A stretch of DNA of 32,133 nt from Thermoanaerobaculia bacterium (GTDB lineage Bacteria > Acidobacteriota > Thermoanaerobaculia > Gp7-AA8). Of the stretch, positions 5,180-31,362 are shown one piece after another. The translations under genes were made by a program, and so were the position numbers. Location of the stretch: the NCBI GenBank assembly GCA_017883235.1, contig JADGNY010000077.1, positions 1 through 32,133 of the forward strand, given 5' to 3'. Position 1 is the first letter of the stretch, and every line of letters starts with the position of its first letter. The notes under the pieces are model-generated. The model was not told the DNA's origin. It made no database searches and was given only the letters and a program-made list of their open reading frames with translations.

Positions 5180-6640
5180 GTGACAGTCCAGGCACCCGCG
5201 GCCGAGCAGGCTCCGAGCTTCACGCTCAACGACCTGCTGGTCTACATGGCCAAGCAGCAGGCTTCCGATCTTCATCTGAAGCCGATGCGGCCGCCGCTGC
5301 TGCGCATCCGAGGAAAGCTCGTACCGGTCAAGAGCGATCCGCTGAAGCCGGCCGATATCGAGAAGATGCTGCTGCCGCTGCTCAACCAACATCAGCAGGG
5401 AAAGTTCGAGACCACGCAGTCGGTCGACTTCGGCTACGGCGTTGCGGGCGTGGCCCGCTTCCGCGTCAACGTCTACAGGCAGCGAGGCACGGTCGGTGCG
5501 GTCTTCCGCCGCATCCCCATCAACGTGCTGACCATTGAAGCGCTCGAGCTGCCGGACGCGGTCCGCGACCTGACCCAGATTCCCGACGGCCTCGTCCTCG
5601 TCACCGGCCCGACCGGCTCCGGCAAGTCGACCACGCTGGCGGCGATGATCTCGCACATCACCGAGACCGAGCCGCTGCACATCGTCACCATCGAAGATCC
5701 GATCGAGTTCCTCTTCGTCGACAAGATCGCCGCCATCTCCCAGCGGGAAGTCGGCAGCGACACGCCGAACTTCAAGGAAGCACTCCGCAATGCCATGCGC
5801 CAGGACCCGGACGTCATCATGGTCGGCGAGATGCGCGACACCGAGACCGTGGAGACGGTGCTGACTGCCGCCGAGACCGGGCACCTGGTCTTTTCCACGC
5901 TGCACACCAACAACGCCGCGCAGACCATCGACCGCATCATCGACACGTTCCCGGCCGATCAGCACAAGCAGGTCCGCTCGCAACTGGCCCTGGTCCTGCG
6001 CGGCATCATTTCCCTGAAGCTGATCAAGACCACCACCGGGACCTTGACGGCAGCCGTGGAGATTCTCAAGAACTCGCCGCGCATCGCCAGGCTCATCGAA
6101 GACGGGCACACCAAAGACATCCTCGAGGAGATGGAGAGCTCGGTCGGACTCTACAAGATGCAGTCGATGAATCAGTCGCTCATCGCGCTGCTCGTACACC
6201 AGAAGATTTCCTATCAGGATGCAATGGCACTCTCCAGCGACCCCGACGACCTGTCGCTCAAAGTGCGCAAGCTCTTCCCGCAGATCGAAGAGCGCGTCCG
6301 CCAGGGGGGAGAAATGGCTCCGAGCGATTCCGATTACTCGCAGATCACCGAGCTGATGGACATCAAACGGCTCTACGAAGAGCAGGAAGTGCATTGGCGG
6401 CACCGCGTGTCCGTGAAGGAAGAGGAGATCGCGAACCTCCATCACGACACGGAGCTCCTGCGGCAGCAGATGCAGCAGACATCCGCCGCGCGCTCGCAGC
6501 ACGATGAGGAGGTCGTCCGTCTGCGCGGTGAGAACGAGCGCCTCCGCGCCGACGCCCAGGCCAAGATCACCCAGCTCCAGGAGAGGATCAAGGAGCTGAA
6601 TCAGAAGCTGATGGTGGCGGGGGCGGGGGTGAAGAAGTAG
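5180..6640 (+). CDS. pilT: PilT-family type IV pilus retraction ATPase with C-terminal coiled coil
   Basis: A hexameric secretion ATPase at the cytoplasmic base of type IV pili that powers pilus retraction and twitching. The protein has 486 residues. The N-terminal PAS-like domain is at about 15-120, Walker A GPTGSGKS at 143-150, the Asp box VTIEDPIE near 169-176, Walker B VIMVGEMRD at 212-220 and the His box STLHTNNA near 239-246. Ordinary PilT proteins are about 340-380 residues. Here a charged heptad-rich coiled coil of roughly 80 residues (about 395-475) is appended. GTG 5180 is chosen because the open frame upstream is repeat sequence and the homologous region begins after it. PilU or a PilT paralogue is an alternative name. 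Confidence 0.88.
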   Translation: MTVQAPAAEQAPSFTLNDLLVYMAKQQASDLHLKPMRPPLLRIRGKLVPVKSDPLKPADIEKMLLPLLNQHQQGKFETTQSVDFGYGVAGVARFRVNVYRQRGTVGAVFRRIPINVLTIEALELPDAVRDLTQIPDGLVLVTGPTGSGKSTTLAAMISHITETEPLHIVTIEDPIEFLFVDKIAAISQREVGSDTPNFKEALRNAMRQDPDVIMVGEMRDTETVETVLTAAETGHLVFSTLHTNNAAQTIDRIIDTFPADQHKQVRSQLALVLRGIISLKLIKTTTGTLTAAVEILKNSPRIARLIEDGHTKDILEEMESSVGLYKMQSMNQSLIALLVHQKISYQDAMALSSDPDDLSLKVRKLFPQIEERVRQGGEMAPSDSDYSQITELMDIKRLYEEQEVHWRHRVSVKEEEIANLHHDTELLRQQMQQTSAARSQHDEEVVRLRGENERLRADAQAKITQLQERIKELNQKLMVAGAGVKK

Positions 6641-6726
6641 GTTGCTGAGTTTGGGTTGCAGAGTTGCTGGGTTGCAGAGTTGCTCAGCGTGATTCAGCAA
6701 CCAAGCAACCAAGCAACTCAGCAACC
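6640..6726. repeat. Word-repeat hairpin exactly filling the pilT-queF gap
   Basis: The element runs from the last base of the pilT stop codon to the base before the queF ATG. Bases 6640-6651 pair exactly with 6715-6726. Between them are further GGTTGCAGAGTTGCT words on the left and CAACCAAGCAACC words on the right. No Shine-Dalgarno sequence is present before queF. Confidence 0.75.
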
Positions 6727-7077
6727 ATGTCCACACCTTCACAAACCCTCGCCACCTTCCCCAACCCCAACCCCGAGCGCGATTACGAGATCGCCTTCGA
6801 GGCGCCGGAGTTCACCTGCCTCTGTCCGATGACGGCGCAGCCGGACTTCGCCACCATCCGCATCCGCTACGTCCCCGATCAGAAGTGCGTCGAGCTCAAG
6901 TCGCTCAAGCTCTATCTCTGGTCGTACCGTGACGAGGGAACGTTCCACGAAGCGGTCACGAACAAGATCGCCAACGATCTCATCGCCGCACTCGATCCGC
7001 GTTACCTCCACGTCGAAGGCGACTTCTACATCCGCGGCGGGATCAAGACCGTGGTGAAGGTGGAGCACCGGAGGTAG
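6727..7077 (+). CDS. queF: NADPH-dependent 7-cyano-7-deazaguanine reductase
   Basis: Reduces preQ0 to preQ1 in queuosine tRNA modification, in the cytoplasm. It is the short, single-domain (YkvM-like) type, 116 residues. The catalytic cysteine lies in [13 protein letters not shown] (about 30-42), and the family motif [17 protein letters not shown] with a following FHE is at about 57-77. The ATG at 6727 directly abuts the arm of the preceding hairpin. The frame is open further upstream but codes only repeat words there. No other queuosine genes are nearby. A damaged second copy of the last 33 or so codons lies at 7432-7528. Confidence 0.93.
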
Positions 7078-7113
7078 GTTCGGCGTTGCGGTCTCGGGGT
7101 GGCCAGTCTCGAC

Positions 7114-7365
7114 TCACCGCATCCAGGAATCGATGATGTGCATTCAGAGATCCTGGATGCGCATTCAAGGATTCTGGATGTGCATTCAAAAACCTTGGAT
7201 GCGTATCCAAGGATCCTGGATACGCAGTCAAGAAGCTTGGATACGTATTCAAGAACCTTGGGTGCGCAGTCAAGAACCTTGGGTGCGCAGTCAAGAAGCT
7301 TGGATACGCATTCAAGGATCCTGAATGCGCAGTCAGGAATCTTTGATGCGCAGTCAAAAATCGAT
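7114..7365. repeat. 21-bp tandem array, 11 clear units plus one degenerate
   Basis: Units of exactly 21 bases start at 7135 and run to 7365, with a degenerate unit at 7114-7134. A typical unit reads GATACGCATTCAAGGATCCTG. Variation is concentrated at a few positions (GATG/GATA/GGTG, CAGTC/CATTC, GGATCCTG/GAACCTTG/GAAGCTTG). Many units carry a small inverted repeat of the form CAAG...CTTG, so the array could fold into a row of short hairpins. Because the period is a multiple of three and lacks stops, open frames exist on both strands, but none has a credible start signal. Confidence 0.85.
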
Positions 7366-7431
7366 CAAAACGGGCCCCGAACCGCCACCAAACAACCAAA
7401 AATGGTCATTCAGCCACACCAGGAATCGCAG

Positions 7432-7528
7432 GCCAACGATCTGATCGCCGCACTCGAACCGCGTTACCTGGACGTGAGAAGGCGACTTCTACGTCCGCGG
7501 CGGGACCGTGGTCAAGGTCGAGCACAGG
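7432..7528 (+). pseudogene. Frameshifted duplicate of the queF 3' end
   Basis: This segment repeats queF bases 6976-7074 at high identity: both encode NDLIAAL(D/E)PRYL, then GDFY(I/V)RGG and VVKVEH. An extra base in the middle breaks the frame, and six bases corresponding to two codons after the RGG motif are missing. There is no upstream part and no start. It looks like a relic of a tandem duplication, separated from the intact gene by the 21-bp array. Confidence 0.85.
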
Positions 7529-7567
7529 AAAAATGCTCATGAGGCCGTCTAATCTGGCGGAGGTCAC

Positions 7568-8917
7568 ATGCCGCCCAAGCCAGCCATCTTCCTTCCGGGA
7601 TTTCCTTCCAGCGAGCTGCTCGATCCGGCCGGCCATGTCGTCTACCCGCCGCCGTCGCCGCTTTCGCTTTTGAATCCGACGAACAAAGCAGCCTACCTCG
7701 CCAGGTTGTCCGACGTTCCTGGTGATCTTGTGGCCGGAAGCCCGGTTCCATCCCTCTTCGGTCTCGTACCGGAGGCACAGTCGCTCTATGACATCCTCGC
7801 TACGTTTGGCTACGACATCACTCCCGCCAGCACGAACTTCAAGCCCATCGGGTGGGATTGGCGGCTTGGAGTCGGCGCCGCCGCAACGATCAACCGTATC
7901 CGCGCCACGCTCGACGCACTCTCGCCGAACAAGGATGGGAACGTCATTGCCATCCTCCACTCCACCGGAGGCCTCGTTTTCCGTGCCTTCCTCGAGCAGG
8001 AGCCCGCGTACGCGAAGTGCTTCGAGCAGGTTCTGACGTTCGGCATCCCGTGGGCAGGGACGCTCGAGGCGCTCCACGCCGTGGTCGTCGGTGTGGGTAT
8101 CGGCATCGGTCCGATCAAACTGATTTCCGAAGCTGAAGGAGCGAGTATTTTCGGCCACGCGCAAGCCGCGTACGACCTCTTCCCGACCGATCCGTCGCTG
8201 AACCTCTTTATTTCAACGGGCGTACCGACGACTCCCAAGGCCGATCAGTCGTGGACGACCGAACAATATCAGCGCGATCTGCTTGCGACTGCCCACGGCC
8301 CGTTCCCGCAGCAGTTCGACGACCTGCCTCTGACGAATGTTTGCGGCTGGGGTGGAGCGACGTGGCCGGTGGTGACGCTCGTCGGCGGAAAGATTACCTG
8401 GCTTGCTCCACACAAGGAGGCAGGGGATGGTACGGTGCCGTTCGTCTCGTCTTCGTGGCTTCAGGGAGCGAAGGTACGGCCGGTCTACGTTCCGATCGGA
8501 ACGTTCGCCGAAGATATGCTGCCGAGAATTCACGGACAGCTATGGGGCTCGGTGGCCATTCAGCAGATTTTTCGTGAAGTTCTCGGTGGCGCAGCGCCTC
8601 AGCCATTCATCACGGCTGCCGCCGATAGCGATCAAAGCATTGACTTCAACAGCAATGTAAACGTTCGAATGACAGCGTTGGCGCCCGACGGCTCGGCACT
8701 TCCGAACTGCGTGGCCACCGTGGACATCGGCGGAAAGAAGACGAAGGTGCCCTTTGATCCTACCGCGATGCTGCACGGCGATCGCCGCGCCGAGGTTTCG
8801 ATCAAGCGCGCGGGCATCAAACACAACATCGCGAACGACCTGTTCCGTTTTGAGATCACATTCACCTGGGACGGAGGCGTGCCGGTCGTGGTGCCGGTGA
8901 TCATCCATTCGGTGTAG
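7568..8917 (+). CDS. LCAT-like alpha/beta hydrolase with C-terminal beta domain
   Basis: A 449-residue protein resembling lecithin:cholesterol acyltransferase and related phospholipases or acyltransferases. It opens with the FLPGFPSSEL strand-loop typical of these enzymes. The nucleophile elbow is LHSTGG (S132), the acid is in GDGTVP (D287), a hallmark of the family, and the likely catalytic His is in RIHGQ (H322). The elbow has Leu where the usual pattern has Gly. Residues from about 345 to 449 look like an added beta-sandwich domain. No signal peptide is apparent, so its cellular location and lipid substrate are unknown. GGAGGT sits just before the ATG. It converges on purC with no bases between the two stop codons. 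Confidence 0.75.
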   Translation: MPPKPAIFLPGFPSSELLDPAGHVVYPPPSPLSLLNPTNKAAYLARLSDVPGDLVAGSPVPSLFGLVPEAQSLYDILATFGYDITPASTNFKPIGWDWRLGVGAAATINRIRATLDALSPNKDGNVIAILHSTGGLVFRAFLEQEPAYAKCFEQVLTFGIPWAGTLEALHAVVVGVGIGIGPIKLISEAEGASIFGHAQAAYDLFPTDPSLNLFISTGVPTTPKADQSWTTEQYQRDLLATAHGPFPQQFDDLPLTNVCGWGGATWPVVTLVGGKITWLAPHKEAGDGTVPFVSSSWLQGAKVRPVYVPIGTFAEDMLPRIHGQLWGSVAIQQIFREVLGGAAPQPFITAAADSDQSIDFNSNVNVRMTALAPDGSALPNCVATVDIGGKKTKVPFDPTAMLHGDRRAEVSIKRAGIKHNIANDLFRFEITFTWDGGVPVVVPVIIHSV

Positions 8918-10985: not shown

Positions 10986-11087
10986 AGAAAGGCAGAAGGC
11001 AGAAAGCAGAAGGCAGAAATGCTCCGCTATGCCCACATCTCGACGTAGCGGAGCACTTCTGCTTTCTGCCTTCTGCTTTCTGCCTTA
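10986..11087. repeat. Word-repeat hairpin with GGCAGAA arms
   Basis: The left arm (10986-11029) consists of GGCAGAAGGCAGAAAGCAG words followed by ATGCTCCGCTA. The right arm (11046-11087) is the reverse complement of both parts. The loop is about 16 bases. It starts 3 bases past the gltA stop and could terminate gltA transcription. The same word builds the element at 15203-15290. Confidence 0.8.
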
Positions 11088-14418: not shown

Positions 14419-15206
14419 TGAGCACGCGGACCGTCGTTCTCGTTCTTCTTCTCGCGGCGCTGGCGTCCTCCGGCTGCACCAGCCACTCGCAGTTTCTGGA
14501 ACGCGAGATCAGGCTTGGCGATCACTCGTACAAATACCGGGTCTGGCTGCCGCACCACTACACCAAGCTACGTCGCTGGCCGGTCGTGCTCTACCTTCAC
14601 GGCAGCAGCGAACGCGGCTCGGACAACATCAGCCAGTTGAGCACCGGCCTCGGCCCCGCGCTGGAGCGCTACGGCGAGCGGTACAAAGCCGTCATCGTTT
14701 TTCCTCAGGCTGATTCGGGACAGGAGTGGTACGGCGAGATGGAGACGATGGCGCTGGCGGAGCTGGATGCGGCCATGCGCGAGTTCCACGGGGACCAGCG
14801 CCGCGTTTACCTGACCGGCATTTCGATGGGAGGCGCAGGCACCTGGTACATGGCCCGGCACAATCGGAAATGGGCCGCCCTCGTGCCGGTCTGCGGAGAA
14901 GTGGCCCGGCATCCCGACGATCCCTTTCCGAGTGATCCACCGCCGGACATCGCCCGCATCGTCGGCTCCCGCGATCCGTACGCAACGCTGGCCGGTCAGA
15001 TCGGCAACACGCCGGTCTGGGCATTCCACGGCGCGACGGATGACATCGTGCCGGTTACCGAATCACGGTCGATGGTGAAAGCGCTCCGCCAGGCCGGCGG
15101 CAACGTCCAATACACCGAGTATCCGAACGGCAGCCACGACGTCTGGGACGCGGCCTACGGCGACGCGACACTGGTGCACTGGATGCTGCAGCAGAAGATG
15201 AAATGA
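14418..15206 (+). CDS. Lipoprotein alpha/beta-hydrolase (predicted esterase/peptidase, COG4099-like)
   Basis: A 262-residue lipoprotein with a signal and lipobox ASSGC (Cys20). The mature part has YLHGSSERGSDN (about 59-70), the nucleophile elbow GISMGG (S136), the acid in FHGATDDIVP (D208 or D209) and His in NGSHDVWD (H240), so a full Ser-Asp-His triad. This matches the polyhydroxybutyrate-depolymerase-like or predicted-peptidase esterases; the substrate is unknown. The GTG shares its first base with the TAG stop of the glycosyltransferase (TAGTG), and there is no separate ribosome site, so expression is coupled. The two could act together on a cell-envelope glycan or lipid. Confidence 0.85.
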   Translation: MSTRTVVLVLLLAALASSGCTSHSQFLEREIRLGDHSYKYRVWLPHHYTKLRRWPVVLYLHGSSERGSDNISQLSTGLGPALERYGERYKAVIVFPQADSGQEWYGEMETMALAELDAAMREFHGDQRRVYLTGISMGGAGTWYMARHNRKWAALVPVCGEVARHPDDPFPSDPPPDIARIVGSRDPYATLAGQIGNTPVWAFHGATDDIVPVTESRSMVKALRQAGGNVQYTEYPNGSHDVWDAAYGDATLVHWMLQQKMK

Positions 15207-15290
15207 AGGCAGAAGGCAGAAGGCAGAAGCAAAAACCAGTCTCCTTCTGCCTTCTGCCTTCTGCCTTTCCTTCATCCTTCATCCTTCCAT
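15203..15290. repeat. Word-repeat hairpin between convergent genes
   Basis: The left arm overlaps the esterase stop codon and reads ATGAAGGCAGAAGGCAG onward to about 15230. The right arm (15241-15275) is its reverse complement, CTTCTGCCTTCTGCC. It is followed by CTTCATC words up to 15290, two bases before the convergent stop. It shares the GGCAGAA word with 10986-11087. Confidence 0.8.
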
Positions 15291-15808: not shown

Positions 15809-18800
15809 TTGACTGATGTAAAGCCTATCGACGTGCGTGCCGGCCCGAAGCAGACTCAGGAACTGCTGGAGCATCGCCTCGCCTTCGAAACGCTCGTCTC
15901 CGGGATTTCGACAAACTTCATCAACGTCGCCGCCGACGACGTCGATTGTGAGATCTCAGCCGCGCTCGAAAGCGTGGGCCGCTTTATCGGCGCCGACCGC
16001 GCCTACATCTACAAGCTCACCGAAGATGGAAGCGCCGCCGCGCTGGCGCACGAGTGGAATGCCGATCCCAATGCCGTGCGCGGCCCTGAAACGCTCGTTC
16101 CCTTGTCCTCGTTCCCCTGGACCAGCGAAAAGATCAACGAACTGCAGTATGTGATGGTCTCGATCGATGACCTCCCGCCGGAAGCGGAGGCCGAGCGCGA
16201 ACGGTTCAGGCAGGCCGGAAACCACTCCGTCGTCGTCGTCCCGATGACCTACAACCGCGTCTTTCTCGGCGCACTGGGCGTAGCGTCCGCCGTTCCACGC
16301 ACCTGGAGCGATGAGGTGGTGTCGCTGCTTCGCATCAGCGGGGAGATCTTTGTCAACGCCATGCAGCGTCATCGCGCCGAGGCAGCGTTGCGAGCGAGCG
16401 AACAATGGCATCGCCTCCTCTTCGAGCGCAATCTCGCCGGCGTTTATCGCACCACGATCGATGGCCGCATCCTCGATTGCAACGGAGCCATGGCCCGGAT
16501 CCTCGGCTACTCCTCTCGCGAGGAGCTCATGGAGCAATCGGCGAGGGATCTCTACCAGAATCCATCGCATCGCGACGGCTACATCGCCATTCTCCGCCGC
16601 GAGCGGATGATGACCAGCAACGAAATCTCGTTGCGCCGGAAAGACGGCAGCCCCTGCTGGCTCATCGAGAGCGTCCATCTGCTCGACGGCGATCCCGAGA
16701 TCCAGGAAGGGACGGTCATCGACATCACGGACCGCAAGCTCGCCGAAAACGCCCTTCGGGAGAGCGAGGAGCGATACCGCCTCCTCGTCGAACGGATGCG
16801 CGAAGGGCTCGCGCAAGCCGGCAATGACGGGGTGCTTCAGTTCGTCAACGACCGGTTCTGCGAGATGGTCGGCTACGAGCGCGAAGAGCTCGTCGGCATG
16901 CAGGGGGACATCCTCCTCGCCTATTCCGAAGACATCGCCCTGATGCGCGAGAAAATCCGGCTGCGTATGCGGCATGTGGCCGACCAGTACGAGATACGCA
17001 TTCGCCGCAAGGACGGAACGATCATCTGGCTGGAAATCGGTGGTGCACCGGTGGTCGACGCGGCAGGCAATGTGGTCGGCTCCATCGGCGTGCACAACGA
17101 CGTCACCGAGCGGCGCATGGCCGAGGAGGCGCTGCGCGAGAGCGAGGCACGCTATCGGCTCATGGCCGAGAACTCCACCGACATGATCTCGCGGACGTCG
17201 AACCGCGGCATCCTCCTCTATGCCTCCGACGCCTCCCGCCGCCTCCTCGGATACGAACCGTCCGAGCTCGTCGGCCGCTCCTTCTACGATTTCGTGTTCG
17301 ACGCCGACCGCGAAGAGGTGCGCCATCTCTCCTCCTTGATCCACGAGTCGGGACCGACCACGTTCGCCTACCGGGTCGAGAAGAAGGACGGTTCGCTGGT
17401 CTGGTTCGAAACGACCAGCCGCAGCGTGCACGACGTCTTCACCGGCAGGATTCGCGAGATTGTCGGCGTCTCTCGCGACGTCACGGAGAGGAAGCGGGTC
17501 GAGGAACAGATCGAGTATCAGGCGTATCACGACGCGCTGACCGGACTGCCGAACCGGCGACTCTTCCGCGACCGGCTGACCGTCGCTCTCGCCCACGCGC
17601 GGCGCATGAAACATCCCCTGGCCGTGATGTTCCTCGATCTCGACCGGTTCAAGGTCGTCAACGACACGCTCGGTCACTCGACCGGCGACGAGTTGTTGAA
17701 GACCGTCGGCACACGGCTCCAGGCATCGTTACGGGAAGAGGACTCGATCGCCCGCATGGGCGGCGACGAGTTCACAATCCTGCTGGCCGATCTCAAGACG
17801 ACGGACGATTCCGCCAAGATCGCGCAGAAGGTCCTCGACACGGTCGCGCAGCCGCTGAAGGTCGACGGGACGGAGCTGTTCGTCACCACCAGCATCGGCA
17901 TTGCTCTCTTTCCCAGCGACGGCGACACCGCCGAGGCCCTGCTCGCCAACGCCGACCGCGCCATGTACCGCGCCAAGGACGCCGGGCGGAACTCGTATCA
18001 GATGTTCACGCCGGCAATGAACAACCGGGCGCTGGAGCGGCTGTCGCTCGAGAACGATCTGCGCCACGCGCTCGATCGTGGCCAGCTGGAGCTCCATTAC
18101 CAGCCGCAGATCAATATCGCCTCGGGACGGGTGACGGGAGTGGAAGCGCTGCTGCGATGGAACCGCCCGGGCTTCGGTCTCGTCGGCCCGAAAGACTTCA
18201 TCCCCATCGCCGAGGAGACGCAACTGATCGTGCCGATCGGCGAGTGGGTTCTGCGAGAGGCCTGCCGCCAGGCCATGGCGTGGCAGAGCGATCGCCCAAG
18301 CGGCTTCCGCATGGCGGTGAACCTTTCCCCGCGCCAGTTTCAGCACAGCGATCTCCCGCACGTCATCGCGTCGGCGCTGGAGCTCTCCGGAATCGCGCCG
18401 CATGACCTCGAGCTCGAGATCACCGAGAGCCTGGCCATGCAGAACACCACGCGCACGATCGCCACGCTGCAGCGGCTGCGCGAGATGGGCGTGCAGATCG
18501 CCATCGACGACTTCGGAACCGGACACTCATCGCTGAACTATCTGCGCAGCTTCCCGATCGACAGCGTGAAGATCGATCAGGAGTTCGTGAAGGAGATCGA
18601 AGGGAGCGAAGCCGACCGCGCCATCGTTTCGGCGGTCATCGGCATGGCTCGCGGCCTGCGCCTGCGCGTCACCGCCGAAGGCGTGGAAACCGAAAGCCAG
18701 CTTGCCTTCCTGCGGGAGCAGGGATGCGAAGACGTGCAGGGCTTCCTCACCGGCGAGCCGGTTCCGGCGTCCGCGTTCCGGCCGAAGAACGAAGTCAAGT

Positions 18801-18814
18801 CGCCAGTGGATTGA
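15809..18814 (+). CDS. GAF-PAS-PAS-PAS-GGDEF-EAL cyclic-di-GMP signalling protein
   Basis: A 1001-residue cytoplasmic sensor predicted to make and/or break cyclic-di-GMP. Order: a GAF domain (about 20-190), three PAS domains (about 198-312, 318-440, 444-565), GGDEF (about 570-735) and EAL (about 750-995). The diguanylate cyclase motif GGDEF is intact near 651-655, and so is the phosphodiesterase motif EALLRW near 779. The later ELEITES, IDDFGTGHSSL and KIDQEFV motifs are also present, so both activities are possible. No membrane segments are seen. A TTG start is used. The gene's last 20 bases overlap the end of the convergent vapC. It may set pilus or biofilm state together with the PilT gene, but that is inference. 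Confidence 0.95.
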   Translation: MTDVKPIDVRAGPKQTQELLEHRLAFETLVSGISTNFINVAADDVDCEISAALESVGRFIGADRAYIYKLTEDGSAAALAHEWNADPNAVRGPETLVPLSSFPWTSEKINELQYVMVSIDDLPPEAEAERERFRQAGNHSVVVVPMTYNRVFLGALGVASAVPRTWSDEVVSLLRISGEIFVNAMQRHRAEAALRASEQWHRLLFERNLAGVYRTTIDGRILDCNGAMARILGYSSREELMEQSARDLYQNPSHRDGYIAILRRERMMTSNEISLRRKDGSPCWLIESVHLLDGDPEIQEGTVIDITDRKLAENALRESEERYRLLVERMREGLAQAGNDGVLQFVNDRFCEMVGYEREELVGMQGDILLAYSEDIALMREKIRLRMRHVADQYEIRIRRKDGTIIWLEIGGAPVVDAAGNVVGSIGVHNDVTERRMAEEALRESEARYRLMAENSTDMISRTSNRGILLYASDASRRLLGYEPSELVGRSFYDFVFDADREEVRHLSSLIHESGPTTFAYRVEKKDGSLVWFETTSRSVHDVFTGRIREIVGVSRDVTERKRVEEQIEYQAYHDALTGLPNRRLFRDRLTVALAHARRMKHPLAVMFLDLDRFKVVNDTLGHSTGDELLKTVGTRLQASLREEDSIARMGGDEFTILLADLKTTDDSAKIAQKVLDTVAQPLKVDGTELFVTTSIGIALFPSDGDTAEALLANADRAMYRAKDAGRNSYQMFTPAMNNRALERLSLENDLRHALDRGQLELHYQPQINIASGRVTGVEALLRWNRPGFGLVGPKDFIPIAEETQLIVPIGEWVLREACRQAMAWQSDRPSGFRMAVNLSPRQFQHSDLPHVIASALELSGIAPHDLELEITESLAMQNTTRTIATLQRLREMGVQIAIDDFGTGHSSLNYLRSFPIDSVKIDQEFVKEIEGSEADRAIVSAVIGMARGLRLRVTAEGVETESQLAFLREQGCEDVQGFLTGEPVPASAFRPKNEVKSPVD

Positions 18815-19226
18815 CCACGGTGAGGCCGGCGAAACGCCGGAAGTCGTTGTCCGTTGAGTAGATCGCGTATCCCTGTTCGATCGCCAGCGCGGCGAGGTGC
18901 GCGTCCGAGGTCAGGTTTCCGCTGGTTCCCGTGGCTTTAAGAAGGTTGCGCAGAATGGGCCAGTGCTGCTCTCCGGGACGTACGAGAGCAACATGCGGCT
19001 GCGCCAGCCACGAATCCACATAGTCAACAGCGCGATCAGGGGGCAGGGGGTTGTGCATGACGCCCGAACGAGTTGTGACCCTCAGGAATGCGAGCGCCAC
19101 GATCCACGCGAGACCTACCGGAGTGGTATTCGAGAGGATCGCTTCAAGCCAGTCGTGCGCTTTCCTGTGGTGAGGTGAATCCCGATCGATGGCGTAGATG
19201 AGCAGGTTCGCATCGACCAGGATCAT
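18795..19226 (-). CDS. vapC: VapC-type PIN-domain ribonuclease toxin
   Basis: A 143-residue PIN domain. The first acidic residue D5 sits in ILVDANLLIYA, and the C-terminal acids D108 in TSDAHLA and D126/D128 in STDNDF are present. The central segment reads ALAFLRV, a variant common in one VapC branch, where a Glu is often found instead. VapC toxins cut tRNA or rRNA when their antitoxin is degraded. The ATG overlaps the end of the antitoxin gene. The 3' end overlaps the end of the convergent GGDEF-EAL gene by 20 bases. Confidence 0.92.
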   Translation of the reverse strand: MILVDANLLIYAIDRDSPHHRKAHDWLEAILSNTTPVGLAWIVALAFLRVTTRSGVMHNPLPPDRAVDYVDSWLAQPHVALVRPGEQHWPILRNLLKATGTSGNLTSDAHLAALAIEQGYAIYSTDNDFRRFAGLTVVNPLAT

Positions 19227-19489
19227 TTTCGCAATTCCAGCTTCCGGGCAATTTCCTCGTCTTCGATCGCATCGGCGAGGCTCAATGCCTTGTCGAGGTT
19301 TACGCCCGCCCGCACACCGCCGAGGGAAACCGTGGCCAGGCGGTACGCCTTCGGCGGCCGGGCGTGTTTCGCGCAGAGACCGTTGCGAAGCGTCTCGTTC
19401 ACGACATCCTTGAACGGTTTGCCGGCGCGATGCGCAACTTCCTTGAGCTCCTTCGCCACCTGGTCATCAAGAGTCAGCGTTGTTCGCAT
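19223..19489 (-). CDS. vapB: VapB-like antitoxin
   Basis: An 88-residue protein starting MRTTLTLDDQVAKELKE, a ribbon-helix-helix DNA-binding start, followed by the helix-helix KPFKDVVNETLRNGL (about 24-38) and a C-terminal tail that should bind and block the toxin. It overlaps vapC by four bases, the standard arrangement. By analogy it would repress its own promoter, whose elements lie within 35 bases upstream. Confidence 0.9.
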   Translation of the reverse strand: MRTTLTLDDQVAKELKEVAHRAGKPFKDVVNETLRNGLCAKHARPPKAYRLATVSLGGVRAGVNLDKALSLADAIEDEEIARKLELRK

Positions 19490-23480: not shown

Positions 23481-23933
23481 ATGCCGCCAGCGTGTCCTCG
23501 ACGTGACAGAAAGCCGTTACGACATGATCTGGTGATCGACGCAAAGACCTCGGCGCGCCTTGGCCGCGTTCGGCAACACGGCACATCGCCAGAGCTTACG
23601 GTGCGTAGAGCGCTACATTCGCTCGGACGGAGATTTCGTGTCCACAACCGCGACCTTCCCGGTTCACCCGATGTGGCAAACCGCTGTCGGAAGTGGGCCA
23701 TTTTTGTTCATGGATGCTTCTGGCATCGCCACGCAGGCTGCAAGCGCGCCACGACGCCGTCGCGAAACCGCGAATTCTGGCTGTGCAAGTTTGATGCGAA
23801 CCTGGCTCGTGATGCACGTGTGCAGGCCGCTCTACGTGAGCAGGGCTACGGTGTACTTGTGATCTGGGAGTGTGAAACACAAGATGCGGGGGCCATGACG
23901 ATGGTTCGGCGACGGCTACAGCGCCTCGCCTGA
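23481..23933 (+). CDS. vsr: Vsr-type very short patch repair endonuclease
   Basis: A 150-residue nuclease of the Vsr family, which nicks next to T:G mismatches formed when 5-methylcytosine deaminates; related proteins also act as restriction nucleases. Visible marks are GTSPELTVRRALHSLG, the catalytic Asp in LPGSPD (D64), the zinc/active-site block AIFVHGCFWHRHAGC (73-87), FWLCKFDANLARD and VLVIWECE (126-132). The family usually begins about 20 residues before the TSPE segment, so the GTG at 23532 is a serious alternative to the ATG at 23481; neither has a clear ribosome site. A C5-cytosine methyltransferase, the normal Vsr partner, lies 5.9 kb downstream in the same island. Confidence 0.92.
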   Translation: MPPACPRRDRKPLRHDLVIDAKTSARLGRVRQHGTSPELTVRRALHSLGRRFRVHNRDLPGSPDVANRCRKWAIFVHGCFWHRHAGCKRATTPSRNREFWLCKFDANLARDARVQAALREQGYGVLVIWECETQDAGAMTMVRRRLQRLA

Positions 23934-24178
23934 TTGCGCAGCAGGCCCGGCCGCCCGCAGCCGCCGCGCGCCCACCGACCCGACCGCCCACGTTACGCGC
24001 AAATAGAGCCCACCGTTCAGCGCCATTGCGCACCAGCGAGGTTCGCTGATCTGAACCCAGGGCGAGCATCCTGACGACCACATGAACATCTTCCTCCCGC
24101 CGAGCTCGCCTTCCGAGGTAACATCATGAGCGCGGGGAGCACAGCGCCGCATTTCGACTGCCAGCTCCCTAACTTGCG

Positions 24179-26431
24179 ATGCCTACAGAGAGCTTCATCG
24201 TTGATGCGGCGATTCTCCAGGAGCTCGGCGAGCGACTGATCGGCCGCCCTGCGATCGCGCTTGGCGAGCTGGTGAAGAATGCCTACGATGCTGATGCAAC
24301 AGTCTGCCGCATCGAGTTTCATTCGGACAAGATCATCGTATTCGACAACGGCGACGGCATGACCGATGACGACTTCGCGAAGCATTGGATGCGAATCGCC
24401 ACGACGCACAAGGTAGATGAGCGCATATCGTCGAGCTTCAGGCGGCCCCTAACAGGCTCCAAGGGCATTGGACGCCTATCGGCTCAATTCCTCGCCAATG
24501 AGCTTGTGCTCGACAGCACCTCAAGAAAACACCGTAAGCGCGGCGTCCACGCTGCGGTGGACTGGCGGACCGCGGTGAGAGGCACCGATCTCAGCAAAGT
24601 GACCGTCAGCTGGAGTTCCGAGAGTCACGCGGAATCTTACGCGGATGACAGCGAGTTCGGTACACGGATCGAGTTGACGGGCCTGAAAACGACTTGGGAC
24701 GCCGTAGCTCTCGAAGAGCTCGGAAACGACGTCTGGATGCTGCGGTCACCCTTCAATCAGCCCTCGAGACGACCCACTGCCTCGAAGCGCGACGAGTTCA
24801 GGGTCGATATTGAAGCGCCCAACATTGCCGCTGCACGTGAAGCTTTCGACCGCACGATCAAGGCGGTCTTTTCAAATTGGAAGGCGCGCATACGAGGTAA
24901 TCTCGACAATGGTCGAGCTGGGGGAAAGGCAGTAGTGACGGTCGAGTTTAGAAAGGGTTATCCGACCGTTCATGACGCGGCGAAACAATACCAAACCACC
25001 GTTCAAATCCCTGTTCGAGCCACTCCGCAAACAGTCCATTCGTTGATCGATCGCACGGCGTTCGAGATTCTCATCTTCAAAACAGTCGGCAGGCAACCGG
25101 GTGGCGTCTCCGTAACAGATCTGCGTGAGTACCTCGGACGCTTTGGGAACGTCTCGATGTATGACGTTGGCTTTCGGCTTCCATACTACGGCTCCAAGGC
25201 CTATCGTGTCGGCGAGGATTGGCTCAACATTGCCGCGGACCAAAGCCGAAGGCTCAACCAATCCGACCTTCTGCCGGAAAACCTACAGATGCAAAACCGG
25301 TATATGTTGGATCTTCCTGCAACTGGGCGGATCTTTGGCGCTGTCGAGATCGACACCAATCACGAGAGGTGGGTCTCGCGTCGATCTTCAAAAAGCAAGG
25401 CAGTCCACCTCGGGCTTCAACCTGGCCGCGATCGATTACATGACAATGCGGCGTTCTACCAACTCCGTGATCTCGTTCGCTTTTCGATAGATTATTACGC
25501 CAACCGGTATCGCGCTCGGCACCTTGAGTCTCTTGAAAATCAACGACCGACTGAACCGTCATCCACGAGATTGGAGCGAGCGGTCGAAGTATTCGAAGAC
25601 AGCAAACGCGACATATCTCCTTCCGTCTACCGGATCGTCAAGCGCGAGTTGGATGATGCTGTCAGGGCTCGACGGACAGAGGAGGAGCTAGCAGATGAGC
25701 GGGCGGCGCTGTTGGCTCCCCTCGCTTCAGCAGGGATGACCGCACTCGCGTTGAATCACGAGATCTCGCGGGAGAGCGCGTTTCTGCGAAGAATCGGCCG
25801 TCGACTACGGGAGTTGGCCAAGAAGCACGCCCTCGTGGAGTTGGCGGATCTCGCAGAAGAGTTCGATGAAGGCAAGAATCGCCTCGATTCACTGCGCGAG
25901 CTGTTTGCTCCCCTACTTTCTGGCGAGGACAAGTTGGCGACAGACCGCCTCCGGGTGCATGCGGTCGTCAGACAGACGGTCAAGGGAATGAGCGTGCTCA
26001 TGCCGGGCGTGCGGATCAACTTGGATCAAGTACCGGTCGACCTTCGTTTTCCCGTCGGATCTCTTGCCGAGTGGTCTGCCTTGCTCCAGAACATTCTGTC
26101 AAACGCATGGAACGCCCTTTTGGACAGCACGAGGCGCGAGATACTATTCACAGGAGGGCGCGATGGACGTGGGCGCGAATGGTTCCAAATGAGCGATACA
26201 GGCCAGGGTCTCGGAGTACCGCTTTCCGAATCAGACAGACTGTTCGCGCCGTTCGAGAGGGCGTTGCGGCTGAGTCCAGACAAACGGTCTATCGCGATTG
26301 GAGGACAGGGACTCGGGCTGGCCATCGTTCGCATGCTTGCGCGCCGACGACTCGCCGACGCGCGGTTCGTCGAACCAATCGCGGGATTTTCAGCGACGTT
26401 TGAGGTCTCATGGAGAGGGGCGAAGAAATGA
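24179..26431 (+). CDS. Double-GHKL protein: MORC/HSP90-like ATPase fused to histidine-kinase-like module
   Basis: A 750-residue cytoplasmic protein. The N-terminal GHKL ATPase has the N box GELVKNAYDADA (29-40, with E30 and N34), FDNGDGM (55-61) and the lid loop TGSKGIGRLSAQ (92-103). A middle region to about 460 includes LGLQPGRDRLHDN, resembling the second (S5-like) domain of such ATPases. A helical dimerisation-type segment follows with a candidate phospho-acceptor H527 in LALNHEIS. The C-terminal histidine-kinase ATPase has an N box with N642, DTGQGLG (about 672-678) and GGQGLGLAIVRM. Known MutL/MORC-like ATPases occur in restriction-modification loci; a fused kinase module suggests nucleic-acid-triggered signalling (inference). 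Its stop overlaps the next start as ATGA. The 245-base gap upstream shows nothing firm. Confidence 0.85.
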   Translation: MPTESFIVDAAILQELGERLIGRPAIALGELVKNAYDADATVCRIEFHSDKIIVFDNGDGMTDDDFAKHWMRIATTHKVDERISSSFRRPLTGSKGIGRLSAQFLANELVLDSTSRKHRKRGVHAAVDWRTAVRGTDLSKVTVSWSSESHAESYADDSEFGTRIELTGLKTTWDAVALEELGNDVWMLRSPFNQPSRRPTASKRDEFRVDIEAPNIAAAREAFDRTIKAVFSNWKARIRGNLDNGRAGGKAVVTVEFRKGYPTVHDAAKQYQTTVQIPVRATPQTVHSLIDRTAFEILIFKTVGRQPGGVSVTDLREYLGRFGNVSMYDVGFRLPYYGSKAYRVGEDWLNIAADQSRRLNQSDLLPENLQMQNRYMLDLPATGRIFGAVEIDTNHERWVSRRSSKSKAVHLGLQPGRDRLHDNAAFYQLRDLVRFSIDYYANRYRARHLESLENQRPTEPSSTRLERAVEVFEDSKRDISPSVYRIVKRELDDAVRARRTEEELADERAALLAPLASAGMTALALNHEISRESAFLRRIGRRLRELAKKHALVELADLAEEFDEGKNRLDSLRELFAPLLSGEDKLATDRLRVHAVVRQTVKGMSVLMPGVRINLDQVPVDLRFPVGSLAEWSALLQNILSNAWNALLDSTRREILFTGGRDGRGREWFQMSDTGQGLGVPLSESDRLFAPFERALRLSPDKRSIAIGGQGLGLAIVRMLARRRLADARFVEPIAGFSATFEVSWRGAKK

Positions 26432-27705
26432 ATGTGCTCATATGTGACGACCAAGAGACTAGCCGGCAGAGTGTCGTCGATCGTCTTCATGCTGTGGGTT
26501 TAGAACCCACGACGCTGATCGGCTCGGCCCTCCTGGACGCGTTGAAAACACTCTTTGCAAGAGTCCGCGCGTGCCGAGAAAACCCCGGAAGCTACGAGCA
26601 CGCGGGAAGCGCGTTCGACAGAGCTGACATAGTCATTCTGGACAACAACCTCACTTATCTTGATATTGCGGATGCTCCACCTCTAACTGCTGAGGCCATC
26701 GCCGGTTACGTGAGAGCATTCACTCGCTGCGGCTACATCGTGTCTTTGAACATGAATCCCGATGTCGACTTCGATTTGCGGTACCTCGTTGGTGACTTCT
26801 CCACGCGTGCGGACCTCGCCATTAACGCCGATCATCTCGAGAATAAGTCGTTATGGACAGGCGACCCGAAGGATGCGCGTGACAGATTCTGCCCTTGGTA
26901 CTGGCCACGCTTAGATACGTCCGCCGCGCGCCGAAAGGCACAGGTCGAGTTCCTGAAGACACGCCTCGGCGACTCCGTATTGGACTCCTTTGGCTTTGAC
27001 GACGCCGGAGAGGATCTCCTTTCACTTCATGCGCGAGGTGCGCTGTCACCCGACGCGATTTCGGAAGAGGGCCAACCAGCTAGCCTTCGCGGTGTTACGT
27101 TTCGGCGCGTGTTCCTCACAAAGGACAGATCCTTGCCCTTCAAGGATGATCGGGAACTGCTCGACAAAGCCGCGCGCGAAGGGAACGGGAACGACGCCTT
27201 GCACGAAATGATCTGCCGCGTGGTAGCAGCCGACATCGATCTGTGGTTCCGCCGCGACGTGCTAGGACCGCAAGAACCGTTGGTGGACGTACCGCACTTA
27301 CTGACGAGATTTCCTTTCCTGCTGCTCGATCGAGCTGGCCAGATCGATGATTGGAACTCAGTCATCAACTCTGCGCCACCGTTTGGATTGGATCCTCGAC
27401 TTTATGAAAAACACTTGTCTCCCGCCAAGTTCGCACATCAGGAATGGGTCCACACGGACTCCTTTTGGTGGCCCCGCCTGAAGGCCGACGAACTACTGAA
27501 TGACTATTTTCTCAAGTCACAGGACGAGCTGTGGGCCGACGTCGTGTTTTGCGAAGATGAGTCTAGGTTTCGGTATCGGCTCGGATCTGATGGGAGTGAA
27601 TCGCCTATCGAATTCTCTGCTGAATTCGAGAGTTCTTGGAACCGGCGCTACATCTCGGACCTGAACGGCATACGCTACGCTCCTCGGACAAGGCTCGCAA
27701 GCTAG
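26428..27705 (+). CDS. Receiver-domain protein with large unassigned C-terminal region
   Basis: A 425-residue partner of the double-GHKL protein, coupled by a four-base ATGA overlap. Residues 1 to about 130 read as a receiver domain: acidic pair D7-D8 in VLICDDQETS and a phospho-acceptor candidate D72 in ADIVILDNNLTYLD. The later Thr/Lys positions are not canonical, so the domain is divergent. The remaining 290 residues show no helix-turn-helix or enzyme motif that I recognise. They include aromatic patches (FCPWYWPRLD, DSFWWPRLK) and several conserved-looking acidic segments. The start at ATG 26428 is chosen over 26410 because of the overlap. It is probably the relay or effector of the system; its output is unknown. 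Confidence 0.75.
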   Translation: MNVLICDDQETSRQSVVDRLHAVGLEPTTLIGSALLDALKTLFARVRACRENPGSYEHAGSAFDRADIVILDNNLTYLDIADAPPLTAEAIAGYVRAFTRCGYIVSLNMNPDVDFDLRYLVGDFSTRADLAINADHLENKSLWTGDPKDARDRFCPWYWPRLDTSAARRKAQVEFLKTRLGDSVLDSFGFDDAGEDLLSLHARGALSPDAISEEGQPASLRGVTFRRVFLTKDRSLPFKDDRELLDKAAREGNGNDALHEMICRVVAADIDLWFRRDVLGPQEPLVDVPHLLTRFPFLLLDRAGQIDDWNSVINSAPPFGLDPRLYEKHLSPAKFAHQEWVHTDSFWWPRLKADELLNDYFLKSQDELWADVVFCEDESRFRYRLGSDGSESPIEFSAEFESSWNRRYISDLNGIRYAPRTRLAS

Positions 27706-27719
27706 TGAACGGAAGATCC

Positions 27720-28337
27720 ATGCCGCTCGATGACATCATCGATCTGATGCAGGCGTACGCGCGCCGCGGGATCAGCGACTGGAGGTCGGCCAAGTGCACC
27801 AGTGACCAGACGAAGCAACGGGTGCGAGTGCTGCTAAAGAACCAGGTCGCTGAACGGGAAGAAGAGGCAGTGCATGCAATCGCCTCGATTACAAGCGCGA
27901 ACCCGCGCCAGTTATTCATTCCAATGCCGAAGGTTCACCATAAACACATTGAACAATGCTTGTTTCTCCCGTTCCGCGATGGCGCAAATAACGCCTCTTT
28001 CGATCTCCTGTTGCTGTGCGGCGGGAAGAACTGCCTGGGATTTCGCTTTGAGCCTCCGCAGCGTGGGACTCACAGGTATGCTCACATACAGATGAACCAG
28101 AAGATGCTTCGCGGCGATAACCTGTTGAAGATTGCCGGCCTTCCGGACTGGGTTCCGACGAGTTATCCGGCATTCCCAATGTGCACATCTGATCCCGTCG
28201 AAATGTTTCTGGCGATGACGACTTCCGTGCACGGTTATGAAGGCGGGATGACTGATATCCTCCAAGAGGCGTTGGCCAGCAAGCCCGGTCCGCTACGGCT
28301 ATATTTGGACAGGCTAGCGTCCCATCTCGACGTTTAG
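27720..28337 (+). CDS. Protein of unknown function in the methyltransferase/kinase island
   Basis: A 205-residue protein that I cannot assign. The first 70 residues are helical and charged. A central strand-rich part follows (PKVHHKHIEQCLFLPF, FDLLLLCGG, CLGFRFEPP, THRYAHIQMNQ), then LPDWVPTSYPAFPM and a helical end. Several histidines and acids in the middle could form an active site, but no nuclease signature such as PD-(D/E)XK is convincing. The ATG at 27720 has GGAAG 4 bases upstream. A GTG at 27705 that shares a base with the preceding TAG is an alternative. It is in line with the receiver gene, so it is likely co-transcribed. Its stop overlaps the end of the convergent methyltransferase gene by four bases. 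Confidence 0.65.
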   Translation: MPLDDIIDLMQAYARRGISDWRSAKCTSDQTKQRVRVLLKNQVAEREEEAVHAIASITSANPRQLFIPMPKVHHKHIEQCLFLPFRDGANNASFDLLLLCGGKNCLGFRFEPPQRGTHRYAHIQMNQKMLRGDNLLKIAGLPDWVPTSYPAFPMCTSDPVEMFLAMTTSVHGYEGGMTDILQEALASKPGPLRLYLDRLASHLDV

Positions 28338-29725
28338 AAGCGTGCCAGCATCAGAAAACGCTTGTAACAGCGGATGAAACTGCTACCGACCCGTGGCGAC
28401 AAACCCTCCAGCGCTGACGCCAGCCTGCCCCCCTTCAGCTTCGCATAAACCGCGTCGATATCATCATCAGCAGCAAAGATCGCGTAGACACCGTGAGATG
28501 GCACAGCGCCGGAACGATCAATCGCGACCCGCGGCACCCTTGCGAGCTCGGGAACCAGGAGCTTGGGACGGGACCAGTCTGACGCAAGCAGCCGGTCGAT
28601 TGGGCGATACCAAACTGCGCCATTGTTCACGATCGCTCGTTGCGTCAGTTGAATTCGGAACCGTTCTAGTCTTTTCTGAAGCCGCGGGAATTGGCAGAGA
28701 TCGAGCAGCTTGCCGCCCTGGTACATCACAATCACTCGCCGCCCAGTCCACAGGACCGTGCCCTCGCCGATCTCTGAACCGTCTATCCAGGGACGCAGCA
28801 GCTGAGATTCGACATCTTTCTCTTCGGGCCTCAGGACATATGCTGGCGTATGACCCAGCGCGGGACCTACTTTCACACTACACCCGAGCTCAGCGAGAGT
28901 CTTGCCGTGAGAGCGTGTAACGACTGCCGGCGCCGTGCCACGAATCGGCAGAATCTTGGACGCAATGAGAATGCTGGGGTACGATCCCACTGAAGCGGTA
29001 AATGCCTCCGCGGCCGGCAGCGAACGTTCGGAGCGGATCTTTAACTGCGGCAGCCACTTCGTCCGGAATCCCTCTGCGAACGCCATGTAGCGCCACCGGT
29101 CAGAGCAAATAAAACCACATCGGCCACCAGGCGCCAGCGATGCGAGCGCCCGATCGAGGAAAGGCAACATCAGGTCCCCGCCCGTCATGGTTCGCGAGAG
29201 GACGCGCTCGTAACTTTCCTTGAGCTGTATGGGAACGCGTGACCATCTTACGTACGGCGGATTTCCTACCGTGTGCGTGTAGCCGACCGCGGCTCCCTCC
29301 AAAAGCAGGAAATCGCCTTCGATCACCCACGCGGCGGCGCAAGCAAGCGCCGTTCGATGATGTACACCTAGCGTTCGCAGAGTATCAACCACGCGTTCCC
29401 GCGCTCGTCGAGCTTCGCCGGGATGCAGTTCGAAAGCGGTGATGCGCTCGCGGAGCGTGGACGCCGTCAGTTCCACACTTCTGGCAGCCAGCGCCGCGAC
29501 TAACCGCCGCGCCGCCTCGGTAACGAACGCCCCGTCACCGCAGGCGGGCTCCAGAAGACGCGCTGACGAGAGGTCTGCATCTGCTTTCCAACCCACCGCA
29601 TCGAGGATTCGGCGGACCACCGTCGCTTTCGTGTAGACTCCGCATCGTCGATGGAGCGCCTCGACCTCTGCCGACACCTCCGGCGACTTGATGAGACTAG
29701 CGGACAGCGATGGTCGAGCATCCAC
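28334..29725 (-). CDS. N6-adenine DNA methyltransferase (TaqI/Eco57I-like)
   Basis: A 463-residue class I SAM-dependent enzyme that should methylate adenine N6 in a specific DNA sequence. Motif I is LLEPACGDGAFV (57-68) for SAM, and motif IV is VGNPPYVRW (153-161). The order I then IV marks the gamma class, as in M.TaqI. Residues from about 240 onward match a TaqI-C-like target-recognition region with the WTGRRVIVMYQGG strand-turn. Start GTG 29725 has no obvious ribosome site; a GTG 16 codons later is possible. It runs opposite to its neighbours, divergent from the cytosine methyltransferase. It may protect host DNA against a nuclease in the cluster or mark sites read by the GHKL protein. Confidence 0.88.
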   Translation of the reverse strand: MDARPSLSASLIKSPEVSAEVEALHRRCGVYTKATVVRRILDAVGWKADADLSSARLLEPACGDGAFVTEAARRLVAALAARSVELTASTLRERITAFELHPGEARRARERVVDTLRTLGVHHRTALACAAAWVIEGDFLLLEGAAVGYTHTVGNPPYVRWSRVPIQLKESYERVLSRTMTGGDLMLPFLDRALASLAPGGRCGFICSDRWRYMAFAEGFRTKWLPQLKIRSERSLPAAEAFTASVGSYPSILIASKILPIRGTAPAVVTRSHGKTLAELGCSVKVGPALGHTPAYVLRPEEKDVESQLLRPWIDGSEIGEGTVLWTGRRVIVMYQGGKLLDLCQFPRLQKRLERFRIQLTQRAIVNNGAVWYRPIDRLLASDWSRPKLLVPELARVPRVAIDRSGAVPSHGVYAIFAADDDIDAVYAKLKGGRLASALEGLSPRVGSSFIRCYKRFLMLARF

Positions 29726-29808
29726 CGGTGCATATTGGTGCGATACGCTGCCCGCGTCAAGTCCCTAAACATGAGAGGTTTACGATCGATGCGCGGATTT
29801 CCCAGCTG

Positions 29809-30933
29809 ATGTCGGTGACCGGTCTGTTTTCAGGCATCGGAGGCTTCGAGCTGGCCTTCGCCGAAGCCGGTTTTGATTGCCAGTCTCTCGTCGAAATCGA
29901 TCCCGCGGCGACAGCTGTTCTGAAAACTCGCTTTCCGGACGCGGAGGTGTTCGGCGACATTCTCGACGTGAAACACCTGTCGTCGGCGACCTCACTTTTG
30001 ACGGCGGGGTTTCCGTGTCAGAACCTCAGCATGGCTGGTGACAAAACCGGCATCTCTGGAACCAAATCGGGGATCGTCGGAAAGATGTTCGAGCTCATCG
30101 AAGATTCGCTCGTGCCGACGGTCGTCATCGAAAACGTGTACTTCATGCTTCAACTCAACTCCGGTAAAGCAATGAGCTGGCTGGTCAACCGCTTTGAGCA
30201 ACTTGGATACAAGTGGGCATATCGCGTCTTGGATTCAATGGGTTTCGGCCTACCACAACGGCGACGGCGTGTCTATTTCATCGCCAGCCGGGAGATCGAC
30301 CCACGAACCGTACTGTTCGCAGATGAACAGCCGGCAGAACATGCACTACATCGCGATCTATTACTACCACTGGGCTTCTATTGGACAGAAGGACGTTCGG
30401 GTATCGGTTTGACAGTAGACGGCATACCGCCGCTAAAAGTAGGGTCGTCGCTCGGAATCGCGTCGCCGCCCGCGGTCTTGTTTCCGGATGGCGAGGTTCT
30501 GACGCCGAGTGTGGAAGCCTGCGAACGATTGCAAGGCTACGATATCGGATGGACCACGCCGGCTGACAAATCGACGGCCACTCGCAATCCACGTTGGCGG
30601 TTGGTCGGCAATGCCGTCTCCGTACCGGTGGCGAAATGGGTCGCCGAACGAATCAAGAATCCAGGTGACGTTCTGGATTTCCCTATGGTGCCAAAGGGAA
30701 CGCGCAGAGCGTGGCCAGACGCGGCCTGGAACGTCGGGGGTGGACGGGCGGATGTTGTTGCGTCTGACAAGCCGGTGGCGTTCGAACGTTCTTCGATCGT
30801 GGACTTTCGCGACTCCAGTTGGTCTCGTCTCTCGAATCGAGCCTTGAGCGGCTTCATCGATCGGCTAGTGGCCGGCGGACTCCGAACTCCCGAGGGATTC
30901 CTAGAGGCTCTTCGCGCGGCGAAGCCAAAGTAA
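29809..30933 (+). CDS. DNA (cytosine-5-)-methyltransferase
   Basis: A 374-residue C5-cytosine methyltransferase. Conserved motifs in order: I LFSGIGGFELAF (6-17), IV GFPCQNLS with the catalytic Cys70, VI VIENVYF (107-112), VIII QRRRRVYF (150-157) and X RLVGNAVSVPVA (264-275). The target-recognition region lies at about 175-255, and there is a C-terminal extension of roughly 80 residues after motif X. ATG 29809 starts right before motif I; the open frame goes further upstream but no homology is seen there. With Vsr in the same island, the pair fits the classical Dcm-Vsr logic: the methylase creates deamination hot spots and Vsr starts their repair. Confidence 0.94.
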   Translation: MSVTGLFSGIGGFELAFAEAGFDCQSLVEIDPAATAVLKTRFPDAEVFGDILDVKHLSSATSLLTAGFPCQNLSMAGDKTGISGTKSGIVGKMFELIEDSLVPTVVIENVYFMLQLNSGKAMSWLVNRFEQLGYKWAYRVLDSMGFGLPQRRRRVYFIASREIDPRTVLFADEQPAEHALHRDLLLPLGFYWTEGRSGIGLTVDGIPPLKVGSSLGIASPPAVLFPDGEVLTPSVEACERLQGYDIGWTTPADKSTATRNPRWRLVGNAVSVPVAKWVAERIKNPGDVLDFPMVPKGTRRAWPDAAWNVGGGRADVVASDKPVAFERSSIVDFRDSSWSRLSNRALSGFIDRLVAGGLRTPEGFLEALRAAKPK

Positions 30934-31360: not shown

Positions 31361-31362
31361 GC

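Follow-up and report, generated by a model that had tools for sequence, protein, structure and literature searches.

The locus described here raises the question of why a run of palindromic 21-bp units should stand between an intact queF and a decayed copy of that gene's own 3' end. It lies in a stretch of 32,133 nucleotides from contig JADGNY010000077.1 of a Thermoanaerobaculia bacterium (assembly GCA_017883235.1, genome G000 below), and this whole stretch is hereafter called the window. The features concerned are the following, in window coordinates:

6727-7077, plus strand: intact queF, NADPH-dependent 7-cyano-7-deazaguanine reductase (Pfam QueF, E 1.6e-35; one protein match in its own genome).
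7099-7542, plus strand: open frame through the array, with heptads SRxLDxH, judged to be a by-product of the stop-free 21-bp unit and no gene.
7118-7369, no strand assigned: solitary array of 12 units of 21 bp, consensus CGCATTCAAGAATCTTGGATG, of a type shared (18/21) with arrays on contigs C37 and C1.
7432-7529, plus strand: decayed copy of the queF 3' end, sitting where the queF 3' end of relatives abuts the LCAT-like gene.
7568-8917, plus strand: LCAT-like acyltransferase/lipase gene, outside the array (Pfam LCAT, E 3e-9).

The first-pass annotation of the window had described a frameshifted queF 3'-end copy of 97 bases, 360 bases downstream of the intact one, and our alignments confirm a frameshifted copy of 98 bases that starts 355 bases past the last base of the queF stop codon. 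It is composed of three ungapped pieces, which pair 6970-7013 with 7432-7475 (91%), 7015-7042 with 7478-7505 (96%), and 7047-7072 with 7504-7529 (88%); a single gapped alignment, which needs a 1-base insertion and a 6-base deletion, spans 104 columns at 84.6%, and the two flanks of the array, queF tail and copy, align at a blastn E of 4e-29. Elsewhere in the same genome the best other match to the tail copy reached only E 0.18. The LCAT-like gene adjoins queF on the same strand and within ~110 bases in four other genomes from three genera (G003, G007, G008, and G015), and in G008 it starts three bases past the queF stop. Because this gene is an old neighbour of queF in relatives, the extra material in the window amounts to the array and the tail copy only, and the idea that the LCAT-like gene formed part of an insert was dropped. 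The other two genus members, G001 and G002, gave no match to it at E <= 1e-10, and there queF is followed by the opposite-strand gene, named purC by eye, that is found behind the LCAT-like gene of the window. Of the two queF ends, either the tail copy or the intact one may be the original and the other the later arrival; identities to relatives fit both orders. Repeats also lie on the other side of queF: at window positions 6640-6727, between a PilT-like gene and queF, short repeats occur in direct (16 bp) and inverted (12 bp) orientation, and other simple repeats were seen at the same PilT-like/queF position in G017 and G009 (L024, L029).

The first-pass annotation linked the array to a tandem duplication of the queF tail, in which it would probably have arisen or which it would have stabilised, a view favoured by the tail copies that flank the window's array. 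It was proposed there to look among relatives for the array without any queF duplicate and for the reverse, and both situations were encountered. Direct repeats spanning the array, searched over 700 bp per side, were found for only two of 49 arrays (the window's and that of L224), leaving 47 arrays without one. A search of 18 genomes of the taxonomic family turned up clear additional pieces of the queF tail in this genome and in G011; G004 has a short match of 31 bp (E 5e-4) and G009 one of 38 bp (E 1e-3), and weaker ones look chance-like. In the last ~600 bases of contig C226 of G011 (L048), four queF-tail fragments alternate with a different repeat, the inverted-repeat element GTGTCATCCTGAG...GAAGGATCT, and the 21-bp array is absent within the 3.2 kb examined there. 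Within the taxonomic family this makes a second case, independent of the first, of a multiplied queF 3' end. The array was hence rejected as a mark of queF duplication, a joint origin of the two being highly improbable in our estimation, and as far as these data go their pairing is accidental. The simplest origin of the tail copy is a local duplication of the queF tail itself, separate from the array.

The array was then considered on its own. Tandem Repeats Finder reports 7135-7362 with period 21 and 10.9 copies, periods 42 and 63 scoring better; read in phase, the 11-12 units of the earlier description become 12 units at 7118-7369, which take up 252 bases of the 354-base gap that separates queF from the copy. 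The units are contiguous and have no spacers, unlike CRISPR repeats, which are split by unique spacers. A coding role is judged unlikely as well: the array is open in one forward and one reverse frame, and sister arrays have periods of 20, 22, 41, 43, and 44, which break a reading frame. Its predicted RNA folds far better than shuffled sequences, with z -10.8 for one strand and -10.2 for the other, as is automatic for symmetric units. The window further contains, by eye only, a PIN-toxin/antitoxin-like pair (18795-19489) and a possible defence island with a Vsr-like nuclease, an ATPase, two DNA-methyltransferase-like genes, and an HTH gene (23481-31617). Paired inverted 7-bp tandem repeats of the AAGGCAG/CTTCTGC type, predicted to form hairpins, are present at 10986-11086 and 15205-15267, and a similar repeat was found behind a gene of the protein family introduced below, in L120.

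When the array was used as a query against its own genome, the check for the 21-bp unit elsewhere that had been suggested earlier, likenesses were found on nine other contigs, the weakest on C10 at E 0.44, while G002 was the sole match among 39 relatives. We also sampled 40 stretches of the genome, 576,433 bp in total, and identified 24 arrays by one criterion. Nineteen of the 24 have a period of 20-22 or 41-44 bp, or ~33 per Mb, a density that may be high because 34 of the 40 stretches include a contig end (23 whole contigs and 11 starts); the remaining five have other periods. The unit sequences are numerous and differ from locus to locus, with several unit families in one genome, and the best period falls at 20-22 or 41-44 whatever the unit sequence. 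Smaller samples gave three arrays in 64 kb of G002, two in 100 kb of G009, two in 80 kb of G010, both of which also fit lags 28, 35, or 49 and are probably a 7-bp repeat, and none in 85 kb of G001 or 20 kb of G012. G000, G001, and G002 are draft assemblies of 246, about 250, and about 110 contigs, respectively, and contigs often end in arrays. One unit type, GAGGCAGTTAACACGCTCC, recurs in L222, L227, L228, and L196; in the first three of these loci the arrays are embedded among other palindromic repeats of the GCCGGCTTCGCCGGC and GCCGCGTTAGCGGC types, and 31-bp inverted repeats border those of L222 and L227.

The neighbours of the related arrays on contigs C37, C1, C143, and C59 are genes or gene remnants of one orphan protein family. 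At E <= 1e-3 this family has 37 matches in the window's genome, 41 in the sister species G002, four in G001, ten in G009, and one in G016, and no match in the 13 other genomes of the taxonomic family. Across a sample of 297 genomes from the phylum (the class Thermoanaerobaculia belongs to Acidobacteriota), it was met at E <= 1e-6 only in G000, G002, and G009, with at most nine candidates scored per genome. Nothing above cut-off was found in Pfam (two members), NCBIfam (five), or PHROGs (five), nor in the viral contigs searched; a PDB profile search returned a best E of 0.54, with no match above threshold. A tblastn search with one member against 72,556 plasmid and 50,697 phage records found nothing at E 1e-5, so that carriage on plasmids or phages, as for arrays of the parC or iteron type, was not seen for this member. 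An AlphaFold model from a 4-sequence alignment was unusable (pLDDT 41). Across 32 sequences only two residues, P50 and L138, are fully invariant, and 21 of the 32 proteins have a pI > 8 (median 9.2).

To quantify the linkage between arrays and family genes, tandem periodicity at lags of 15-45 was scanned over 1 kb on either side of 45 members in the examined loci, the scanned regions being 20 in G000 and 20 in G002 drawn from the higher-scoring of their 37 and 41 matches. Among the 39 members with at least 300 bp of upstream sequence, 32 (17 in G000 and 15 in G002) carry an array within 1 kb upstream, and the best lag is always 21 or 42. Downstream flanks contain some array in 4 of 41 cases and one of period 21 or 42 in none, and 80 control pieces around queF of relatives other than the window's own genome contain no array; by arithmetic from 33 per Mb, an array would be expected in a few per cent of random 1-kb stretches of the genome. 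Three loci (L052, L054, L059) and the first gene of L122 were first reached via their arrays, and without these four genes the upstream count is 28 of 35; the near-identical paralogs L052/L054, L118/L119, and L136/L137 are moreover not independent. For seven of the 39 members no array lies in the 1 kb upstream; among these are two genes of the L122 cluster (G002, C2:37000-43500), in which a single 21-bp array is followed by three consecutive family genes. Only the first of these genes has the array at the threshold applied, and the other two have a promoter-like motif alone. The same array-then-gene order was observed in four other genomes of two genera. In G001, G009, and G016, an array lies within 1.5 kb upstream of 14 of the 16 members and downstream of none, at lags of 21, 22, 41, 42, or 43, three of the 14 (L082, L083, L086) being barely over threshold. 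Array and gene have also been duplicated together, as seen for C37/C1, where the flanks are 95% alike, and for C188/C193 (L118/L119; 94%).

Most sampled arrays are nevertheless solitary within the sequence examined, given that the 576-kb sample includes a single family gene, and no family member was found within 4 kb, where the contig allows, of the six solitary arrays of our first search. The L225 array may precede a gene past its contig end, because its flank resembles the promoter region of L104. Unit likeness to gene-linked arrays was compared for 15 arrays, eight of them from the genome sample. The window's array matches C37 and C1 at 18/21, L053 matches C37 (19), L060 matches L059 (17), and L056-L058 match the gene-linked array of L122 in G002 (19-21); such matches of solitary arrays to the window's type are partly selection, because these arrays were found by similarity to it. 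Within the genome sample, L218 matches L107 (19), L193 matches L109 (18), and L225 matches L105 (16), and five of the eight (L190, L192, L205, L210, L212) match no examined gene-linked unit above 14/21. By its unit, the window's array is a solitary copy of the type found beside two orphan-family genes, those on C37 and C1.

Between array and gene, many loci share a promoter-like motif, TAACC-N-CGTC, at a spacing typical of ECF sigma factor promoters. The strict form, TAAC[CT]-N14..18-CGTC, a pattern written after the upstream sequences had been viewed, occurs upstream in 19 of 42 cases against 1.6 expected from shuffles, and downstream in 2 of 42, both on locus L122; a loose pattern occurs upstream in 25 of 42. 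In 18 of 21 members, which were picked after viewing their sequences and counted without a shuffle control, a hairpin with arms like CAGC/GCTG lies in the 5'-UTR, 38-94 bases before the start codon, and it is kept through two-sided stem changes in L129 (CGGC/GCCG) and L135 (CAAC/GTTG). An Rfam scan of ten family loci revealed no family at the gathering threshold, and the 17 matches obtained in the window all fall below gathering scores, the best (E 4e-5) being to a microRNA family. The arrays precede the promoter-like motif and fall outside the predicted mRNA.

The window's units had been described earlier as keeping CAAG...CTTG symmetry while varying elsewhere, which was taken to suggest selection or conversion for structure. 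The consensus is indeed palindromic beyond chance: 18 of its 21 positions are self-complementary, against 11.2 in shuffles (p 0.008), and CAAG..CTTG is the inner part of a longer palindrome. The changes among units of the array, in contrast, are mostly one-sided, with 35 one-sided pair breaks against two compensatory changes, so that the claim is supported in part. Across 44 arrays, the mean best unit self-complementarity is 13.0/21, against 10.8 when shuffled, and dyad symmetry reaches p < 0.05 in ten, four of which (the window's, L052, L053, and L054) are of the window's own type; our earlier idea of an inverted repeat in every array was corrected accordingly. The same 44 arrays show 736 one-sided and 57 compensatory changes, with 40.7 of the latter expected if changes were independent, and units within one array are not visibly selected for pairing. 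Between species the picture differs. Nearest paralogs from different species have a unit similarity of 12.5/21, compared with 10.2 for other pairs (n = 16 vs 224; Mann-Whitney p 1.7e-4), and mirrored changes in both arms were read by eye in three cross-species pairs, L052/L123, L110/L130, and L111/L137. Such a pattern fits a dyad of importance to the unit type as a whole, perhaps because a protein binds there, better than it fits pairing of individual units as RNA, although shared descent of array and gene accounts for part of it.

We tentatively favour, at rather less than even probability, the reading that the arrays are protein-DNA recognition platforms for the orphan family and that the queF tail copy arose apart from them, by a local duplication. 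In its favour stand the upstream position of the arrays in five genomes, their constant period despite free sequence, the promoter-like motif, the related units of nearest paralogs, the sampled arrays that match a gene-linked unit, and the mostly basic family proteins. Each orphan protein would recognise the dyad of its own unit type and, the units being about two DNA turns long, would assemble along the DNA on one helix face. At its home array it would regulate its own ECF-type promoter, and at solitary copies such as 7118-7369 the chromosome would be marked or folded. An extended form, which we regard as unlikely but conceivable, sees here a lineage-specific, many-channel system of chromosome marking or folding, in which dozens of paralogs would have private ~21-bp array specificities, one ECF-like promoter type, and solitary cognate arrays across the chromosome, and which would supply the missing partner of the enigmatic 20-23-nt satellites. 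Counting against the platform reading, no DNA-binding domain was recognised in the protein-family and PDB searches, dyad symmetry is significant in only ten of 44 arrays, and joint duplication of array and gene also gives related units; furthermore, five of the eight sampled arrays compared have no gene-linked match above 14/21, seven of the 39 members have no array within 1 kb, five of the 24 sampled arrays have other periods, and the sample contains a single family gene.

A possible, if somewhat less probable, alternative is that the arrays are functionless, neutral satellites, grown in intergenic DNA by slippage and cruciform-prone sequence and carried along with a duplicating promoter module. 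The joint duplication of array, promoter region, and gene at C37/C1 and C188/C193, the mostly one-sided changes within arrays (736 vs 57), and the majority of sampled arrays that lie away from family genes are all in keeping with this, whereas slippage leaves unexplained the period of 20-22 or 41-44 in 19 of 24 sampled arrays of unrelated sequence, the absence of period-21 or -42 arrays from all 41 downstream flanks, and the mirrored changes between species. It is quite unlikely, in our view, that the arrays act as RNA, as long transcripts or processed hairpins with the family protein as RNA-binding partner. Folding beyond shuffles on both strands, the recurrent UTR hairpin of the 18 among 21 chosen members, and the transcription of 52-nt repeats reported for Bacillus coagulans in the available parts of PMC8625621 would accord with such a role, but the strong folding follows automatically from the symmetry, the arrays lie outside the predicted mRNA, and the Rfam scans gave no match at gathering scores for either the ten loci or the window.

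REP types have a cognate transposase gene, and mobile repeats of the REP/RAYT type would make the array-plus-gene loci masters and the solitary arrays their mobilised copies. Certain solitary arrays do resemble gene-linked units. This origin appears very unlikely nonetheless, as only two of nine Y1 transposase matches have an array within 1.5 kb, one of them of period 20/40, a count near the expectation from array density; the two family members scanned have no Pfam match above cut-off, the invariant residues of the family number two, and target sequence is not duplicated as a rule, with a direct repeat across 2 of 49 arrays.

Subirana and Messeguer (PMC8161180) have described bacterial tandem repeats that vary in sequence but keep a constant size of 20-21 or 52 nt, and whose function is unknown. 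In the available parts of that paper they remark on the two helical turns, suggest an unknown polymerising protein or small RNAs, and discuss Hfq; the word Acidobacteria is absent from its main text. The accessible portion of PMC6749651 puts the median satellite density of the various prokaryote groups at 0-3 per Mb and lists up to 89 per Mb in Methanosarcina, and by these figures ~33 arrays per Mb is high for bacteria, yet not unheard of among prokaryotes. Our search of open-licence papers returned nothing relevant on Acidobacteria or Thermoanaerobaculia together with tandem repeats, and no tie between arrays and a protein family in the literature on such repeats, so that the gene linkage appears to be new as far as these papers go.

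Similar to REP elements with their RAYT (IS200-like) transposases, the repeats described here are palindromic and intergenic, fall into several types per genome, and in some cases lie beside a gene; unlike them, they are arranged in tandem at a fixed ~21-bp step, and the two scanned members of the associated family have no Pfam transposase match. The arrays likewise recall parC/ParR and plasmid iterons, where helically phased tandem sites stand upstream of the gene for the binding protein (binding being inferred in our case), and differ from these in the many paralogous loci per genome, in a family without plasmid match (one member searched) and without a recognised NTPase or replication domain in Pfam (two members) or NCBIfam (five members). 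With the constant-size repeats of 20-23 nt they share short arrays, a unit of about two DNA turns, the presence of several unrelated unit families in one genome, and an apparent location mostly outside genes, and they are of this known, enigmatic kind. What sets them apart is that many arrays here precede one expanded orphan family with a shared promoter-like motif, no demonstrated partner being named for the 20-23 nt repeats in the available parts of PMC8161180. Position thus ties a specific protein family to 21-bp arrays in five genomes, and promoter motif and unit relatedness do so as well in two of these, which makes the family a candidate partner for the enigmatic repeats, and the question of their suspected partner protein, as raised in those parts of PMC8161180, becomes a binding experiment.
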